From: Rhizobacter sp.
Lineage (GTDB): Bacteria; Pseudomonadota; Gammaproteobacteria; Burkholderiales; Burkholderiaceae_C
NCBI GenBank assembly: GCA_021153565.1
Contig: JAJKJU010000212.1
Coordinates: forward strand, 1-40,009
Direction: 5' to 3'
Length of the DNA stretch: 40,009 nt
Shown here one piece after another: positions 31,943 to 38,857 of this stretch. The notes below the pieces were generated by a model. It did not search any database, was not told the DNA's origin, and worked only from the letters and a program-made list of their open reading frames with translations. The translations under genes and the position numbers were made by a program. Numbering within the stretch: position 1 is the first letter of the stretch; every line of letters starts with the position of its first letter.

Positions 31943-32461
31943 ATGAACATGATCCACGACGCCACCCAGGTGGCACGCCACGAAGCAGCCCGTGAGGCGG
32001 CAGCCGCAGGCGGCGAGTTCCTGACCTTCCGCCTCGGCGCGGAGGAGTACGGCATCGACATCCTGAAGGTGCAGGAAATCCGCTCCTATGAGCAGCCCAC
32101 CCGCATCGCCAACGCGCCCGCGTTCATCAAGGGCGTCGTGAACCTGCGCGGCGTGATCGTGCCGATCGTGGACTTGCGCGTGAAGCTCAATTGCGAATCG
32201 GTCGACTACAACAGCTTCACCGTCGTAATCGTCTTGAACGTCAAGGGCCGTGTGGTCGGCGCCGTCGTGGACTCCGTCTCCGACGTGCTCGAACTCGGCG
32301 CAGGCACGATCAAGCAAGCCCCCGAGATGCACACCTCAATGGATACCAGCTTCATCACCGGCATCGGCAGCGTCAACGACCGCATGCTGATCCTGATGGA
32401 CATCGAAGGGCTGATGACGAGCGCCGACATGGGGCTCATCAATTCGGCCACGACGCACTGA
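31943..32461 (+). CDS. cheW: Chemotaxis coupling protein CheW
   Basis: 172 residues: a short helical N-terminal extension, then a CheW domain with [39 protein letters not shown] and [15 protein letters not shown]. It bridges MCPs and the CheA P5 domain. It probably has its own FliA-type promoter. Its last 166 bases recur at 35456-35621 with about 93% identity. The cheR/cheD/cheB genes that often follow cheW in related clusters are absent; an accessory island follows instead. Confidence 0.96.
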
Positions 32462-32501
32462 GCGTTCTTGAATCGCCTTCCGCAATCGGGCGGGCAGGCC
32501 G

Positions 32502-32543
32502 AGGACATGACCCCGGAATAGCTTCCGGTTTTGGTCATGTCCT
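32502..32543. repeat. Palindromic repeat family P2, short copy
   Basis: AGGACATGACC (32502-32512) and GGTCATGTCCT (32533-32543) are perfect inverted repeats, with an inner stem CCGGA/TCCGG. The sequence AGGACATGACCCCGGAATAG is close to the reverse complement of the right end of the P2 element at 29970-30128, so this looks like the same family with its middle deleted. It lies 40 bp after cheW and could also act as a transcript-end hairpin. Confidence 0.75.
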
Positions 32544-32544
32544 G

Positions 32545-32708
32545 AGAGGCTGAGAGCATTTCGATCATGCCCGCTCATCACGCCAAAAGACCCCCTGCTC
32601 GTCGGTACAAATGCTCGCCATAGCCCGGGCTATGGCTGCGCTCTTTGCGTCTAGATCAGGCGCCTTTTGACGTGCTGGTCGGTCACGCTCGAAAAACTCT
32701 CAGCCTCT
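32545..32708 (+). repeat. Palindromic repeat family P1, copy B (full length)
   Basis: A 164-bp element with ends AGAGGCTGAGAG and CTCTCAGCCTCT and the 16-bp centre CATAGCCCGGGCTATG. The two arms (about 80 bp) are imperfect reverse complements over their whole length. It directly abuts the short P2 element, one base apart. The open frames it contains are by-products of the repeat. Confidence 0.9.
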
Positions 32709-33009
32709 GAGCTGCAGGTGAGCGGAGGATCTGAAGATCTTCTTGACGCACACTTGGCTTGGTTATCGCTGATGAAATTTGCGCTGCCCTTCAAGCTATA
32801 GGAAGTTCGAGCGGCTCGGCACCCGGGTGGCCTCGAGTGGTTCTCAAACGAGCCCGTGACAAAATTGGCGGCCTGCGATGATGGAAATCATCGCGGCAGG
32901 CTCGACCTCTCACAGTGTCAGGTTCGATCACATCGAATCAACGAAGAGCCAATTTTTCGATCGCCCCGAGTCGCGGCAGCCTTTCTTCATCCGAAAAAAA
33001 CCAGAGCCA
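32709..33009. other. Intergenic region with hairpin upstream of lipoprotein
   Basis: About 300 bases with no gene. GCCTGCGATGAT pairs with ATCATCGCGGCAGGC at 32871-32901 around a GGAA loop, with a 3-base bulge. AAGATCTT near 32744 is a small palindrome. GC is lower than in the flagellar genes. The lipoprotein promoter should lie here but I see no convincing -35/-10 pair. Confidence 0.45.
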
Positions 33010-33588
33010 ATGAAAACCCTTCACTCAATCAACAACATCCACCGTTTTGCCCTCCCGCTCGCCATTAGCGCCATGCTCGCTTCCTGCGGCGGCGGCGGCG
33101 GGGAAAGCGGAACTGGAACTGCCGGCCTCTCGGCACAGAGCAACTCGTTCAGTGCACTGGTGGGTACGTATGTGTTGCATTGCACCGCCGGCACCAATGA
33201 TTCGGAACAAGGCACCCTCGTCGTGTCTATGCCGCAGGGCTCCGATAAGGCAAGCGCCACGATTCACAGCCAGTACTACGCAAGCAGCACGACCTGTGAG
33301 GCCAACAAGCTCGATACCGACGTCACTATTACCGGCCAGATTCGCGACTTGGCGAGCACGGTCAATCGCACGCTGGGCAGCAACACCGTGTCGGCGAAGG
33401 TGGTCGAGTTTCGCTACGACTCGCTGACCCTCTCCAATGGCACGCTGAGTGGATCGCTGCCGGCTTTCGGCGGGATGACCAAGGTGGCCTACGTCGTGAA
33501 TGGCAGCAACGTGTACTTCACCAAGGGCGCACGGCTGGCCGACGGACTGGGCGACAGTCTGACGTCGACCCCTCTAACGAAGCAGTGA
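33010..33588 (+). CDS. Predicted lipoprotein of unknown function
   Basis: 192 residues with a lipoprotein signal peptide: basic start, hydrophobic FALPLAISAMLA and lipobox LASC with Cys26, then a Gly/Ser linker (GGGGGESGTGT). The mature part is Ser/Thr-rich, probably beta-structured (FSALVGTYVLHC, VVEFRYDSLTLSNGTLSGSL), and contains two further cysteines that could pair. I recognise no family. ATG 33010 is chosen because it gives a correct signal peptide. It lies on the plus strand next to the minus-strand cassette array and seems not to belong to it. Confidence 0.75.
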   Translation: MKTLHSINNIHRFALPLAISAMLASCGGGGGESGTGTAGLSAQSNSFSALVGTYVLHCTAGTNDSEQGTLVVSMPQGSDKASATIHSQYYASSTTCEANKLDTDVTITGQIRDLASTVNRTLGSNTVSAKVVEFRYDSLTLSNGTLSGSLPAFGGMTKVAYVVNGSNVYFTKGARLADGLGDSLTSTPLTKQ

Positions 33589-33822
33589 CCCGGGCCAGAG
33601 CGCGCAAAGCCAAGAGTCTCATGAGACTGAACTCTCACGCGCGTGCTCGGCCACAAGAGCATCCACAATGCAACGGTTCGCCTGCCTTGACGCCTCGGGA
33701 TACGGGTCTTGCAGGAACTGCGCTCGTGCGCAGGGTCAGACAGGTGCACCGGGGATGTGGGGTACATAGGGGGTAGCAAGCCCTATCGGCCGGAGAGCCG
33801 CATGTTTGCCAAGGGTCCGAGG
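33589..33822. other. Gap between lipoprotein and cassette array; possible degenerate attC
   Basis: On the minus strand the HD-gene stop codon lies inside GTCTAAC (33823-33829), a correct attC 1L core, so an attC should extend leftward. No clean partner core or long pairing arms were found; ATGCAAC at 33668-33674 is the best but weak candidate for the far core. A short stem (ATAGGG with CCCTAT) is present near 33765-33787. No gene was seen. Confidence 0.35.
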
Positions 33823-33823
33823 G

Positions 33824-34333
33824 TTAGACCTTTGCATCGATGGCACCTTCAGAAAGCAACGAGTCCAACTCGACCCACAACGGGTCGCAGAGACCAACTC
33901 GGTAGGCCGAAGTTCTGAAAACCTGGTGCTCGCTCCGATAGAGCTGCCACAGGCTTTGCCTGCAGTCAGCGAGGCAAGCACGGACGTTTGCCAGCCGATC
34001 TGCTGCCTTGACCACCAGTGCTAGTTCATTTGGCCCATGCACCTGAGCCAGCTTGGCATACGTTTTGGCCTTTCGTTCTTTCCGATTGGCACCGGGCTCG
34101 TCGGTGAGCAAGCTTACGCAGGCTGCGATCTTTGGACCGAACTTGTCTTCGATTTCCGCAATGGTCGCGTCTGTGTCTTCGGCGGTGTCGTGGAGATATG
34201 CGACAACAACTGCCTCTTCACCGTAGGGCGCCGCCAGGGCTGCCACAGCATCGAGGTGAAACGAGTATGGGTGATCGCCGTACTTCTGCTCGGCATGAGC
34301 GTGGATAGCGAAGGAGCGGGCTTGTTGCTGCAT
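33824..34333 (-). CDS. HD-domain phosphohydrolase, RelA/SpoT hydrolase-like (MESH1-type)
   Basis: 169 residues. Motifs of the (p)ppGpp hydrolase fold are His11 (AIHAHAEQKYG), His26 (YSFHLDAV), the HD pair 48-49 in AYLHDTAEDTDAT with Glu52/Asp53, ERKAK at 86-90 and Asp112 in KAADRLANV. Single-domain enzymes like this remove the 3' pyrophosphate from alarmones; the substrate here is not proven. No synthetase domain is present. ATG 34333 lies 12 bp after the core end of the upstream attC, as in other cassettes; open sequence further upstream is translated attC. The stop TAA is within GTCTAAC, the 1L core of a following attC. Confidence 0.8.
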   Translation of the reverse strand: MQQQARSFAIHAHAEQKYGDHPYSFHLDAVAALAAPYGEEAVVVAYLHDTAEDTDATIAEIEDKFGPKIAACVSLLTDEPGANRKERKAKTYAKLAQVHGPNELALVVKAADRLANVRACLADCRQSLWQLYRSEHQVFRTSAYRVGLCDPLWVELDSLLSEGAIDAKV

Positions 34334-34345
34334 GGAGTCAGGGAA

Positions 34346-34471
34346 GGTCAACGTTTGAGCTGAGGGGCGAGCTCCGGCATGGCGCTTGGCCCGCCGGACG
34401 GATGATGTACCACACCGGTAGACGGGCCAAGTACCATGCCGGAGCGAGTCCACTCGAGCGAAAGGTTAGGC
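34346..34471 (-). other. attC recombination site A
   Basis: Minus strand 5' to 3': 1L GCCTAAC (34465-34471), 2L CTTTCGCTCGAG, long arms GCTCCGGCATGG and CCATGCCGGAGC with GGGCCAAG/CTTGGCCC, then 2R and 1R GTTGACC (34346-34352). It is 126 bp. The order of 2L and 2R matches known attC top strands (AATTCGTTCAAG at left, CTCAAGC-type at right). Confidence 0.8.
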
Positions 34472-34491: not shown

Positions 34492-34785
34492 CTAGCGGCG
34501 AGATTCGCCGTGCGCTGGATCTCGGGACTGCCCCCGTACAACCAAGACCCGGATGTGACCGTTCAACTCGCGATAGATCACGGAGTACGGGAAGTCGTGC
34601 AGTGGATGGACCCGGCGAAGGTCGTCGGCGGGTGTGCCTATACCTGGAAACTCCACCAGCAACTCGGCCACGCGCTCGAACTCGTTCAGGAAGCGGTTGG
34701 CGAGCTTCGCTCCCCCTTCGCGCCGGTAGAACCGCGCGGCTTCAAGTAAATCAAGTTCGGCTCCGCGGTGGAGGCTGTACGTCAT
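34492..34785 (-). CDS. RelE/ParE-family toxin
   Basis: 97 residues. The pattern EAARFYRREGGAKLANRFL, FPGIGTP, then FPYSVIYRELNGHIRVLVV and a basic C-terminus (RGQSRDP) fits RelE/ParE toxins, which cut mRNA at the ribosome or poison gyrase. The ParE-type ending suggests gyrase, but the target cannot be fixed from sequence. The start overlaps the antitoxin stop by four bases (ATGA). It ends 20 bp before attC site A, so the pair forms one cassette. Confidence 0.85.
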   Translation of the reverse strand: MTYSLHRGAELDLLEAARFYRREGGAKLANRFLNEFERVAELLVEFPGIGTPADDLRRVHPLHDFPYSVIYRELNGHIRVLVVRGQSRDPAHGESRR

Positions 34786-35006
34786 TCGAGGCTGGCACGA
34801 ATGCGGGCAATGGCCTCGGGGCCCGACACAAGCGTCGAGGGGTCTGCGTCGGCCTCGGCATCACGCTTAGCGGCCAGTTGGTTCCAGCGAGCGTCACGCT
34901 CGTAATCGGCATCAAGGCTGGTGATGACTTGATCCAGGAGGCGTGCACGGTCGGCTGCTGGCAACTGCAGCACCTGCTGTGCAAGGAGTTCTACGGGTAC
35001 AGGCAT
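34782..35006 (-). CDS. Addiction-module antitoxin (TIGR02574-like)
   Basis: 74 residues, acidic and helical, beginning MPVPVELLAQQVLQLPAADR and continuing RARLLDQVITSLD, the pattern of the short 'addiction module component' antitoxins that pair with RelE/ParE toxins. The C-terminal half is the expected toxin-wrapping region. ATG 35006 has GGAGAA seven bases upstream. It lies 74 bp after the end of attC site B; that spacer (35007-35080) may hold the module's own promoter, since cassette genes often lack one but TA cassettes usually carry it. Confidence 0.82.
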   Translation of the reverse strand: MPVPVELLAQQVLQLPAADRARLLDQVITSLDADYERDARWNQLAAKRDAEADADPSTLVSGPEAIARIRASLE

Positions 35007-35080: not shown

Positions 35081-35206
35081 GCCGAACGTTTGACCTGAGC
35101 GGCCGGAAGCGGCAAGGCGCTTGGGCCGCGAGGCGCATGATATGCCTGAGCGCTTCGCGGCCCAAGTGCCTTGCCGGTGGAGGTCCGCTCAAGCGAAGGG
35201 TTGGCC
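35081..35206 (-). other. attC recombination site B
   Basis: Minus strand: 1L GGCCAAC (35200-35206), 2L CCTTCGCTTGAGC, arms GGCAAGGCACTTGGGCCGCG and CGCGGCCCAAGCGCCTTGCC, 2R GCTCAGGTCAAA and 1R GTTCGGC (35081-35087). It is 126 bp, the same length as site A, and shows strong pairing. It starts 15 bp after the stop of the small gene at 35222. Confidence 0.8.
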
Positions 35207-35221: not shown

Positions 35222-35446
35222 CTACCCCTTGCACACCTTCTCGGTCACGGCGTTCTTCGTTGCGGCGTCAACGATCCAGACACACGACCTCTCCTTCTTG
35301 AGTTCTCCGGTCACTTGATAGGTGGTGCCTTCAACAGGCTTGAACTCGACGTATCCATCGACGCTGAAGAATGTTCCAGCCATCTTGCTGGCCATCTCGT
35401 GAATCGGAGCACCGGTCTGATGAGTACCAACTAGCTTCAGGCGCAT
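35222..35446 (-). CDS. Small unknown cassette gene, possibly 5'-truncated
   Basis: 74 codons from ATG 35446. The product contains GTHQTGAPIHEMASKMAGTF, then VEFKPVEGTTYQVTGELKKE and ends TEKVCKG; it looks beta-rich and small, like many cassette products. I do not recognise the family. The start lies 10 bp from the junction with cheW-derived DNA and lacks a clear ribosome binding site, so the true N-terminus (perhaps a signal peptide) may have been lost at the junction. GTTGGTA just inside the frame resembles a decayed core site. An internal ATG at 35395 is an alternative start. Confidence 0.55.
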   Translation of the reverse strand: MRLKLVGTHQTGAPIHEMASKMAGTFFSVDGYVEFKPVEGTTYQVTGELKKERSCVWIVDAATKNAVTEKVCKG

Positions 35447-35455
35447 TGGGCGGAC

Positions 35456-35621
35456 CGGCGCAGGCACGATCAAGCATGTCCCCGAGATGCACACCTCGGT
35501 GGACACCAGCTTCATCACCGGCATCGGCAGCGTCAACGACCGCATGCTGATCCTGATGGACATCGAGGGGCTGGTGACGAGCGCCGACATGGGGCTCATC
35601 AATTCGGCCGAGACGTTCTGA
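35456..35621 (+). pseudogene. 3' fragment of a second cheW
   Basis: 166 bp aligning without gaps to the end of cheW (32296-32461), with 11 differences by my count (about 93% identity), including the stop codon. It would encode the CheW C-terminus ending GLINSAETF rather than GLINSATTH. The 5' two thirds of the gene are missing and replaced by cassette DNA. The base changes suggest a diverged paralogue rather than a fresh duplication. Confidence 0.88.
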
Positions 35622-35645
35622 ACGGGAATCTGCCACCCAGCCGAA

Positions 35646-35730: not shown

Positions 35731-38283
35731 CTATTCCTGCGCGGCCCTGCGCAAGGTCTCGACCACCGGCCGTCGCAGCACGTCGCGCAACCCCCACCAT
35801 CCCGCGGCCAAGGCCAGCAGGGCACCTGCCACGCCGCCTGCCAGGGGCACCATGGGCGAGGCGTTCCAACTGAACTCGAAAGCGTACCGAGCCAACGCCC
35901 AACCCACTGCGATCGCGGCCAGCGATGCGAGCACGCCGGCCAATGCGCCTACACCCAGAAGCTCCGCCCGCTGCACTTGCGCGAGCAGCTTGCCGCTCGC
36001 ACCCAGGGCGCGCATGACGGCAAACTCGCGGGCTCGCGACTCACGCGTCGCAGTGACAGCCGCGAACAGCACGACCAGGCCCGCCGCTAGCGTGAAGCCG
36101 AACAGAAACTCCACCGCCCGGATCACCTGGTCCAGCACGCGCTGGACCTGCCCGATGGAGGCCGACACGTCGATGTTGGTGATGTTCGGAAACTCACGAC
36201 TCAGGGCGTTGTCGAATCCCGGTTTGGAAGGCGCCCTGAATGCGGCGATGTAGGTCACAGGCACGTCCTTCATCTGCGCAGTCGGGAACATCACGAAGAA
36301 GTTGACGCGCATCGAGCTCCAATCCACCTTGCGCAGGCTGGTGATGCGGCCTTCCGCCGCTTGCCCACCGATGTCGAAACGAAGCCTGTCGCCGAGCTTG
36401 AGATTCAGCGTCTGCGCGAGGCCATCTTCGACGCTCAGGCCATTGGCTTCATCCACGGTCCACTTGCCGCCGCTCAATTGGTTGTGCGACGGCAGCGTGC
36501 CCGAATGGCTGAGGTTGAACTCGCGGTCCAGGAGGCGCTTGGCGCGTTCTTCGACCATGTCGTCCGGAGTCACGTTCCGACCATTGATTGCGACCAGACG
36601 GCCGCGGATCATCGGGTACCAGTCGTACTGCTTCACCCCCGCGCCGCCGAGCGCGTTGCGGAATGCCTGCCCCTGCTCGGGCTGGATGTTGATGATGAAG
36701 CGATCGGGCGCATCGGGCGGCGTGGCCTTGCGCCAGCTTCCGATGAGGTCGGTGCGCAAGAGCACAAGCAGCACCAGCGCGAGCAGGCCCACGCTGAGCG
36801 CCGACACCTGCAGCACCGCGAAGCCGGGGCGCGCGGCGATCTGCCGCGTGGCAAGCACCAGCCATCGAGGCGCACGGGCCTGCGGCACCGCACGGCGCAA
36901 AACGATGACGGCAAGCCAACTCAAGAGCGCGAAGAGAGCGATGGCGCCAGCGAATCCGCCGACCACGATCAGTCCAAGTCTGAGGCTGGACGACACCGAC
37001 AACAGCAGCGCGACAAAACCCAAGGTTCCCGCCGCCAGCACGGCGATCGACGCGGGCTTGAGCCCCCCCACGTCGCGCCGGATGACGCGCAGCGGCGGCA
37101 CGCGCGACAACTGCAGCACCGGCGGCAGTCCGAAGCCCATCAGCATGGTGATGCCCATGCCGGCAGCAAAGAGGGCAGGCCAGATGGTAGGCGCGGGCAG
37201 CGACGCACTGACCAGCCCCGCGAGCAGCCAGACGAACATGTAGTGCACGGAGAAGCCCAGCACCACGCCTGCGGCGCTCGCGATGACGCCCGCCAGCATG
37301 AACTCAACGAGGTACTGCAAGGCGATGCTTCGCTGCGACTGGCCGAGCACGCGCAACATCGCACAATCGTCGAGGTGGCCGTTGGCGAAATCGCGCGCTG
37401 CAATGCCGACAGCCACGGCAGCCAGCAATGCCGTCAATAGCGCGACGAGGTTCAGGAATTTCTCAGCCCGGTTCAAGGTCTGCTGCATCTCCGGCCGTCC
37501 GGAGGCGAAGGATTCCACCCTCATGCCGCGCAGGTTCTGGCTCTTGATCTGCGCCTCGGACCAGTTGGTGAAGTTGCGCACCACCTCGTCGTTGCCGCCG
37601 GGGGACGCGACCGCGACGCGATAAGTGACGCGGCTCGCGGGCTGGACGAGGCCCGTCGACGCGAGGTCCGCCTCGTTGAGCATCACGCGCGGCGCAAAGC
37701 TCGTGATGCCGGTGCCACGGTCGGGTTCGATGACGATGATCTGGGTGATGCGCAGTGCCGCATCCCCCAGTAGAAGCAAGTCGCCGACCTTGAGGTTGAG
37801 TCCGTCGAGCAGCGCCGCGTCGACCCACGCGGTTCCCGGGTCGGGGGGGCGTGCCACGTTATGCGCAATGGAGCCCGCGCCTGCTCGCACACTCAGTTCG
37901 CCGCGCAAGGGGTAGCCCGAGCTCACCGCCTTCACGCCCACCAGCCGCGTCGCACCGCCCTTGGCGTCAGGTGCTCGGCCCATGCTCGGGAAGACGGCCG
38001 TGGTCGCCACGGTCAGCCCCATCTCGCGCGCCTTGGCGGCAAACGATTCGGGCGCGGGCTGGTCGCTCGCGATGATTGCGTCGCCGCCCAGCAGTTGCCG
38101 CGCGTCGCGCGCAAGGCCATGGTTGAGGCGGTCGGCAAAGAAACCCACGGCGCTCAGCGCGGCGACGGCCAGCGTCACGGCCACCATCAGCAGCCGCAAT
38201 TCCCCGGCACGGAAGTCTCGCGTCAGTTGACGCCAGGCGAGATGCCAGAGGGAGGCGGGGCGAAGCGGCTTGGGCGTGTCCAT
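35731..38283 (-). CDS. ABC transporter permease, FtsX-like (YbbP type)
   Basis: 850 residues. An N-terminal transmembrane helix (LRLLMVAVTLAVAALSAVGF) is followed by a large periplasmic domain (about 50-265), a helix cluster at about 270-375 (first FtsX domain), further helices to about 500, a second periplasmic domain (about 520-715) and a final FtsX domain of three helices (about 725-840, with ATRESRAREFAVMRALGAS). This double-FtsX layout and length match E. coli YbbP, which works with the ATPase YbbA, possibly with the esterase TesA. The partner ATPase is not next to it here. Substrate is unknown; lipid-related or toxic compounds are guesses from family knowledge. ATG 38283 gives MDTPKPLRPASLWHLAWRQL. 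Confidence 0.9.
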   Translation of the reverse strand: MDTPKPLRPASLWHLAWRQLTRDFRAGELRLLMVAVTLAVAALSAVGFFADRLNHGLARDARQLLGGDAIIASDQPAPESFAAKAREMGLTVATTAVFPSMGRAPDAKGGATRLVGVKAVSSGYPLRGELSVRAGAGSIAHNVARPPDPGTAWVDAALLDGLNLKVGDLLLLGDAALRITQIIVIEPDRGTGITSFAPRVMLNEADLASTGLVQPASRVTYRVAVASPGGNDEVVRNFTNWSEAQIKSQNLRGMRVESFASGRPEMQQTLNRAEKFLNLVALLTALLAAVAVGIAARDFANGHLDDCAMLRVLGQSQRSIALQYLVEFMLAGVIASAAGVVLGFSVHYMFVWLLAGLVSASLPAPTIWPALFAAGMGITMLMGFGLPPVLQLSRVPPLRVIRRDVGGLKPASIAVLAAGTLGFVALLLSVSSSLRLGLIVVGGFAGAIALFALLSWLAVIVLRRAVPQARAPRWLVLATRQIAARPGFAVLQVSALSVGLLALVLLVLLRTDLIGSWRKATPPDAPDRFIINIQPEQGQAFRNALGGAGVKQYDWYPMIRGRLVAINGRNVTPDDMVEERAKRLLDREFNLSHSGTLPSHNQLSGGKWTVDEANGLSVEDGLAQTLNLKLGDRLRFDIGGQAAEGRITSLRKVDWSSMRVNFFVMFPTAQMKDVPVTYIAAFRAPSKPGFDNALSREFPNITNIDVSASIGQVQRVLDQVIRAVEFLFGFTLAAGLVVLFAAVTATRESRAREFAVMRALGASGKLLAQVQRAELLGVGALAGVLASLAAIAVGWALARYAFEFSWNASPMVPLAGGVAGALLALAAGWWGLRDVLRRPVVETLRRAAQE

Positions 38284-38371: not shown

Positions 38372-38492
38372 AGAGGCTCTCTCAACTAGGCGCAAAGCGC
38401 AGCCATAGCTCGTGCTATGGCGAGCATTTGCACCGACGAGCAGGGGCCTTTTGGCGTGATGAGCGGGCATGATCGAAATACTCTCAGCCTCT
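38372..38492 (-). repeat. Palindromic repeat family P1, copy C (shortened)
   Basis: Minus-strand orientation. One arm and the centre (CATAGCACGAGCTATG) are complete, but most of the other arm is missing, leaving AGAGGCTCTCTCA at the far end. It lies 89 bp from the permease start and is inverted with respect to copy D, 150 bp away. Confidence 0.88.
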
Positions 38493-38642
38493 CAGTACGG
38501 GTCTCGCGAGGTTGACGTCGGGCGGTCTGAATTGGTTCCATTCCGGCGCTCCAGTAGGAGCGCAGCCGTCGTTCCGTCTTTCGCCTTTTCACACATGCCT
38601 TCGCAGGCGCGCACAGGCACGTGTCATCCCTGGGGTCAACTG

Positions 38643-38803
38643 AGAGGCTGAGAGTATTTCGATCATGGCCGCTCATCACGCCAAAAGACCCCTGCTCGTC
38701 GTTGCAAATGCTCGCCATAGCCCGGGCTATGGCTGCACTTTGCGCCTAAATCAGGCGCCTTTTGACGTGCTGCTCGGACACGCTCGAATTACTCTCAGCC
38801 TCC
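38643..38803 (+). repeat. Palindromic repeat family P1, copy D (full length)
   Basis: A 161-bp element with end AGAGGCTGAGAGTATTTCGA, centre CATAGCCCGGGCTATG and far end CTCGAATTACTCTCAGCCTC. It is closely similar to copy B. Together with copy C it forms an inverted pair around 38493-38642, which contains no gene. The 574-bp gap between the permease and the AraC gene is made up of these two repeats and short flanks. Confidence 0.9.
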
Positions 38804-38857
38804 GAGGAAGGCCGAGCGCAATGCCCGGCATACGGCCGGCACATCTACCAATGCATC

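Follow-up and report, generated by a model that had tools for sequence, protein, structure and literature searches.

A single junction in the draft genome of a Rhizobacter sp., between positions 35455 and 35456, truncates two unrelated genes at once: the third gene of a short integron cassette array and a second cheW gene (cheW2) of the chemotaxis cluster. The reading that we favor, with a probability of roughly three in four, is that a deletion fused cheW2 with a piece of an integron array, each being cut at that point. At its edge, the array has the appearance of a scar left by non-homologous deletion, rather than that of a clean cassette insertion or of recombination between two cheW genes. 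The window, i.e., the whole stretch of 40,009 nucleotides that was analyzed, corresponds to the complete contig C212 of a draft assembly of 381 contigs (5.4 Mb, 92% complete). Its relevant features are as follows.

31943..32461, plus strand: intact cheW1 of 172 aa, preceded by cheA and two MCP genes (Pfam CheW, 1.5e-36)
32542..32711, no strand: dispersed palindromic repeat (genome search)
33013..33588, plus strand: lipoprotein-like gene, 191 aa from the ATG at 33013 (matched in 3 further genomes out of 299 of the family)
33820..34345, minus strand: HD-domain cassette, ORF from about 34333 to 33824 (Pfam HD_4, 1.7e-11)
34346..34471, minus strand: putative attC site 1 (similarity to site 2, inner motif, fold)
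34492..35006, minus strand: toxin-antitoxin cassette, antitoxin 34782-35006 and ParE/RelE-like toxin 34492-34785
35081..35206, minus strand: putative attC site 2 (box scan, inner motif, fold)
35222..35455, minus strand: third cassette gene, truncated, last 77 codons and stop (homologue comparison)
35455..35456, no strand: junction from the interior of the cassette gene to the interior of cheW2, exact base uncertain by a few bases
35456..35621, plus strand: 3′ end left of cheW2, its final 166 bp out of about 519, with the stop codon (alignment, BLAST, tree)
35731..38283, minus strand: FtsX-type permease gene, found beside the che cluster in relatives (Pfam FtsX, 1e-17)

The repeated cheW end

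The 166 bp at 35456-35621 align with the tail of cheW1, stop codon included, with 11 substitutions and no indels, the starts of the two tails being 3160 bp apart. A repeat search of the window paired 32296-32464 with 35456-35624 at 93% identity without gaps, and BLAST of the fragment against its own genome returned an E value of 7.7e-67, by which chance is excluded. Alignment and BLAST therefore bear out the original prediction that the end of cheW recurs about 3.2 kb away; its placement of the fragment at the edge of the array also holds, the left end abutting the truncated cassette gene. The cheW reading frame is kept over 54 codons and the stop, nine codons being changed (three synonymously and six nonsynonymously). 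The CheW domain, complete in cheW1, is incomplete in the fragment: of 172 codons it keeps 54, it lacks a start, and the 353 bp that open cheW2 are missing. The tail has probably lost its function. cheW1, which shares 86-91% of its amino acids with the full copies of the same genus, is the sole intact cheW left at the che locus of this contig. Elsewhere in the genome, contig C331 carries a more distant intact cheW (69%), while C227 and C188 carry weaker relatives.

Gene order in relatives

The loci of relatives were taken from a named-genome scan, in which the 79 most similar of 551 confirmed cheW relatives were kept. Of these, 78 (L068, a duplicate of L020, was left out) and five loci of genus genomes made up a set of 83. 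Gene orders were read by tblastn with five window proteins only, with a floor of 60 bits for the counts over the 83 loci, other genes being invisible to this approach. Two full cheW genes were present in eight of the 83 loci, including those of G002 and G003, the best assembled genomes of the genus, where the full copies are about 4.2 kb apart with two MCP genes in between. In G004, a full cheW was accompanied by a piece of another at a contig end, and G001 had a contig-end piece. These two pieces (L037 and L036, respectively) were the only partial cheW genes in the 83 loci among hits of at least 80 bits; they were considered as further cheW fragments and rejected, since both stop at a contig end and represent assembly breaks. 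Both cheW and the homologous permease were found in 42 loci, and cheW was the last searched gene before the permease in nine of them, two of which have gaps of 642 and 1667 bp that could hold another gene. The order in L074 was cheW-cheW-permease. In the window, the fragment and the permease gene are 109 bp apart. Since some relatives carry two cheW genes and since cheW can precede the permease, the fragment is best read, on this comparative basis, as the 3′ third of a second cheW at the place where relatives carry one. Two of the arrangements proposed in the original prediction as a check, strains with two full cheW genes and strains with cheW directly before the permease, were found among the relatives. 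The case named there as contrary, a cheW fragment without cassettes, was seen in none of the 83 loci among hits of at least 80 bits, although a short diverged remnant could score lower. As a side observation, locus L083, titled as a Bordetella parapertussis metagenome-assembled genome, resembles these Burkholderiales in che gene order and similarity, and its title may be wrong.

Kinship of the two cheW copies

The fragment and cheW1 share 93% of their bases over the tail, and none of the 17 other tabulated copies exceeds 87% identity to the fragment; a local alignment with the G001 copy gave 89% over 147 bp. In a FastTree phylogeny of the tail with 91 copies from relatives, the fragment was sister to cheW1 with a support of 0.984. 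Such proximity is shared by the relatives: in all seven genomes tested (L020, L021, L071, L074, L075, L087 and L104), the two similar cheW copies were each other's nearest, so that the pairs are either recent or kept alike. This pattern points to gene conversion or to repeated recent duplication within the che cluster. Nothing on such a junction was found among the matches listed in a literature search on cheW duplication with gene conversion. The intact pairs of the seven relatives were 90-100% identical over the same tail, and the 7% divergence of the fragment falls inside this range of 0-10%; the event is thus not dated by it, and an old split is not required. From the substitutions, it had been concluded that the copies were already diverged. 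The 7% difference stands, but 93% identity is normal for a working pair and does not call for an ancient separation. The fragment also departs from the relatives at two near-invariant sites (A in 87 of 91 copies changed to V, and M in 88 of 91 changed to V), which suggests that it no longer works, these being just two events. At a third site, where 69 of 91 copies have V, the changed copy is cheW1, and a fourth site is altered in both.

The cassette array

The cassette genes occupy 33.8-35.45 kb and are all on the minus strand. The toxin-antitoxin cassette (Pfam Unstab_antitox, 1.5e-7; ParE_toxin, 5.6e-11) is the only one lying between two attC sites. These two sites, which we read as attC from their motif and predicted fold, are 126 bases long each, 73% alike over 118 nt and 735 bp apart, and each contains one exact copy of the inner motif CTCANNTCAAACGTT. 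Compared with 200 shuffles, the fold z values were -5.9 and -6.3 for site 1 and -6.6 and -8.9 for site 2. The box scan found site 2, missed site 1, and gave a further weak candidate at 88-171.

In the own genome (G000), five exact copies of the motif are spread over three contigs (C212, C144 and C217), and sequences like site 1 are found on C144 and C217. With one mismatch allowed, the motif gave 11 matches against 3 for a control pattern, the inexact ones being doubtful. At the same stringency, it was found 39 times in the single contig of G003, 34 of them in an array at 5.054-5.0715 Mb that ends 0.6 kb short of intI, and 38 times over several contigs of G002, whereas the control pattern was found 0 times in both genomes. 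The other two own-genome contigs with the exact motif both carry group II intron matches, at 1258-1578 and 4478-4750 on C217 (L186) and at 11636-11708 on C144 (L187).

A search with the integron integrase model TIGR02249 gave 27 matches in the own genome, none of them on C212, the best reaching 76 bits against a cut-off of 265; 14 control genomes likewise gave matches under the cut-off. An intI above the curated cut-off was found in four of the five genus genomes and not in this draft. No intI lies beside the array, as it would in a complete chromosomal integron; the locus instead combines at least two close attC sites with no integron integrase nearby. IntegronFinder 2.0 reports a CALIN, a cluster of attC sites lacking an integron integrase, from at least two attC sites (PMC9024848), and by this rule two attC sites without integrase make the array a small CALIN, i.e., an integron remnant with three cassettes and two putative attC sites.

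Both edges of the array are cut

Relatives of the third cassette were found in 20 other of 399 family genomes. Loci were available for 19 of the 22 non-own matches, three being without locus, and in all 19 the open frame, counted without regard to start codons, continues upstream of the match for at least 88 codons, the part missing here amounting to at least about 85 residues. Most of these homologues have a lipoprotein-like start, and the full gene has about 165 codons. When the full frame of the closest homologue was compared with the own genome, only residues 99-176 matched, at 35222-35455. The alignment continues for 12 bp past the junction into cheW-derived bases, and the breakpoint is therefore not exact. 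No long homology was seen at the breakpoint; V-P-A, encoded by the antisense cheW bases, also appears in homologues of the cassette protein, though shifted by two residues. In the own draft, which is 92% complete, neither a match to the N-terminal part of the third cassette nor a close 5′ part of cheW2 was found. An antisense fusion protein of cassette and cheW was also considered. Its frame, 35222-35602, is open, but it has no Pfam match and no sign of being a gene, and antisense frames in G+C-rich genes are often open.

The opposite edge of the array is cut inside the attC of the HD cassette. This cassette is 93% identical to G002:C2:680-1230 (L185), and the homology ends at 33820. In G002, an attC with the exact motif comes after the cassette, and further attC-like sequence was read by eye on the cassette's other side; here the HD cassette has lost its own attC except for the R'' box (33823-33829). 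A second G002 relative of the HD cassette, 69% alike, lies at 6733-7199 of C12 (L190). With both edges cut, the array does not look like a clean insertion made by an integrase. This bears on the first scenario of the original prediction, in which a paralogous cheW lost its 5′ part as the array arrived: the loci of relatives support the paralogue, whereas its loss upon a clean arrival is not supported, the same junction truncating a cassette gene as well.

Region between cheW1 and the array

Within the intervening 1358 bp (32462-33819), the recognized contents are the dispersed repeat and the lipoprotein-like gene, whose longer ORF has no Pfam match. The repeat, of about 172 bp, has ends CTGAGAGGCTGAGAG and CTCTCAGCCTCTGAG and inner sequence GCCATAGCCCGGGCTATGGC, with further copies at 38387-38496 and 38639-38808. 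At least 40 copies, 91-95% alike, are present in the own genome (40 of 584 candidates scored), while it occurs twice at 74% in G001 and is absent from G002-G004 at E<=1e-10; these counts suggest a recent burst. Inspection of 30 copies by eye revealed no clear target duplication, and Rfam matched nothing within the window at gathering scores. Another suspicion raised by eye, that 33589-33819 holds what is left of a group II intron or of a tyrosine recombinase, was dropped: Rfam gave none there, and local scores against the intron-bearing contigs C144 and C217 were 21 and 27, with shuffle maxima of 26 and 29. The recombinase idea was examined as six-frame translations only.

Origin of the junction

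According to the scenario that we favor, the che cluster of this bacterium, which its relatives assign to the Albitalea/Rhizobacter group, would once have had a second cheW beside the permease gene, an arrangement that some relatives show. Part of an integron array of the genus type would then have been placed between cheW1 and cheW2 by rearrangement or transfer. A deletion, later than the arrival or concurrent with it, would have ended inside the outermost cassette gene and inside cheW2, removing at least the 5′ portion of the third cassette gene together with the initial 353 bp of cheW2, and the cut 5′ ends would have been fused together without long homology. The other end of the array would have been trimmed too, leaving the small CALIN. 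With the paralogy, the position, both truncations, the attC structure and the absence of the lost parts from the draft all observed, we infer the order of events and deletion rather than another kind of breakage. No intermediate state was seen in the loci of relatives. A review lists off-target insertion, intI loss and rearrangement among the origins of CALINs (PMC8618304), and the present edges fit rearrangement.

Other explanations were weighed against this one. The second scenario of the original prediction, that recombination within a cheW pair carried the island, was not supported: an exchange between cheW genes would give a full-length hybrid, and the breakpoint shows no long homology. 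Off-target, attG-type insertion by an integrase, as the event that put the cassettes beside cheW and alone made the edges, appears highly improbable. A clean integrase insertion should leave whole cassettes with a full attC at their 3′ end, whereas the array is cut at both outer ends, within a cassette gene on one side and within an attC on the other. Off-target insertion is nevertheless a proposed origin of CALINs (PMC8618304), and it could have been an earlier step in the arrival of the cassettes.

Donor DNA comprising the cassettes, the cheW2 tail and the permease flank could have been integrated by homologous recombination in that flank and by an illegitimate event on the other side. Cassettes do move between strains, and the HD cassette is 93% identical to G002 compared with about 82% for the surrounding chromosome. 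However, the permease flank is itself about 82% identical to G002, equal to the left flank, and the fragment is nearest to the genome's own cheW1 (93%), the next copy reaching 87% over the whole tail; we consider this origin unlikely. Somewhat less likely still is a misassembly joining non-adjacent cassette and cheW sequences. It would be favored by a draft in 381 contigs, by the coincidence of cheW copies with contig ends in G001 and G004, and by the 40 or more copies of the dispersed repeat. Against it, the flanks are as expected, with cheA-MCP-cheW on the left and the permease, a near neighbor in relatives, on the right. Moreover, the array side, attC aside, matches nothing else in the own genome at E<=1e-5 (38 of 38 candidates scored), and thus no long stretch shared at the junction has come to light.

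What the junction records

The deletion scar can be seen as a snapshot of a cassette array stranded and trimmed away from its integrase, and a single junction records the joint loss of part of a core-gene paralogue and part of a cassette gene. It illustrates that a CALIN can end in a deletion scar and that its edge is not to be taken as an insertion site. The scar is an ordinary one of genome rearrangement, of a known kind, and opens no new mechanism; what is new here is that the junction cuts both a cassette gene and cheW2. As far as sampled, this junction occurs in the own genome only. No such junction appeared in the titles and abstract openings of the matches listed in the literature on cheW with integron cassettes, and nothing on one was found in the literature on Rhizobacter integrons. 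A bolder proposal, which we regard as very unlikely, is that the integrase scatters the integron cassettes of the genus and that a landing in the chemotaxis cluster switched off a cheW paralogue, changing signaling. If true, integron activity would alter chemotaxis signaling besides adding genes.

Comparison with known systems

As in the tandem cheW/MCP clusters of Burkholderiales, some of which contain a second cheW, cheA, MCP and cheW genes follow one another here and the permease comes next; of cheW2, however, only the last 166 bp remain. The chromosomal integrons of the genus, as in G003 and G002, share the inner motif CTCANNTCAAACGTT of the attC sites, present there in tens of copies, whereas this draft has five exact copies and no intI above the cut-off. 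In Xanthomonas, CALINs away from the main integron are described in about half of the genomes (PMC12444791). They resemble the present array as cassette clusters at other chromosomal places, but the positions reported there recur across species and strains, whereas this site is found in one genome only. Like CALINs in general, the array combines a pair of attC sites with cassette genes in the same orientation and no integrase in the window; it differs in its very small size, in the damage to both outer cassettes and in the fusion of one edge to the interior of a chemotaxis gene.
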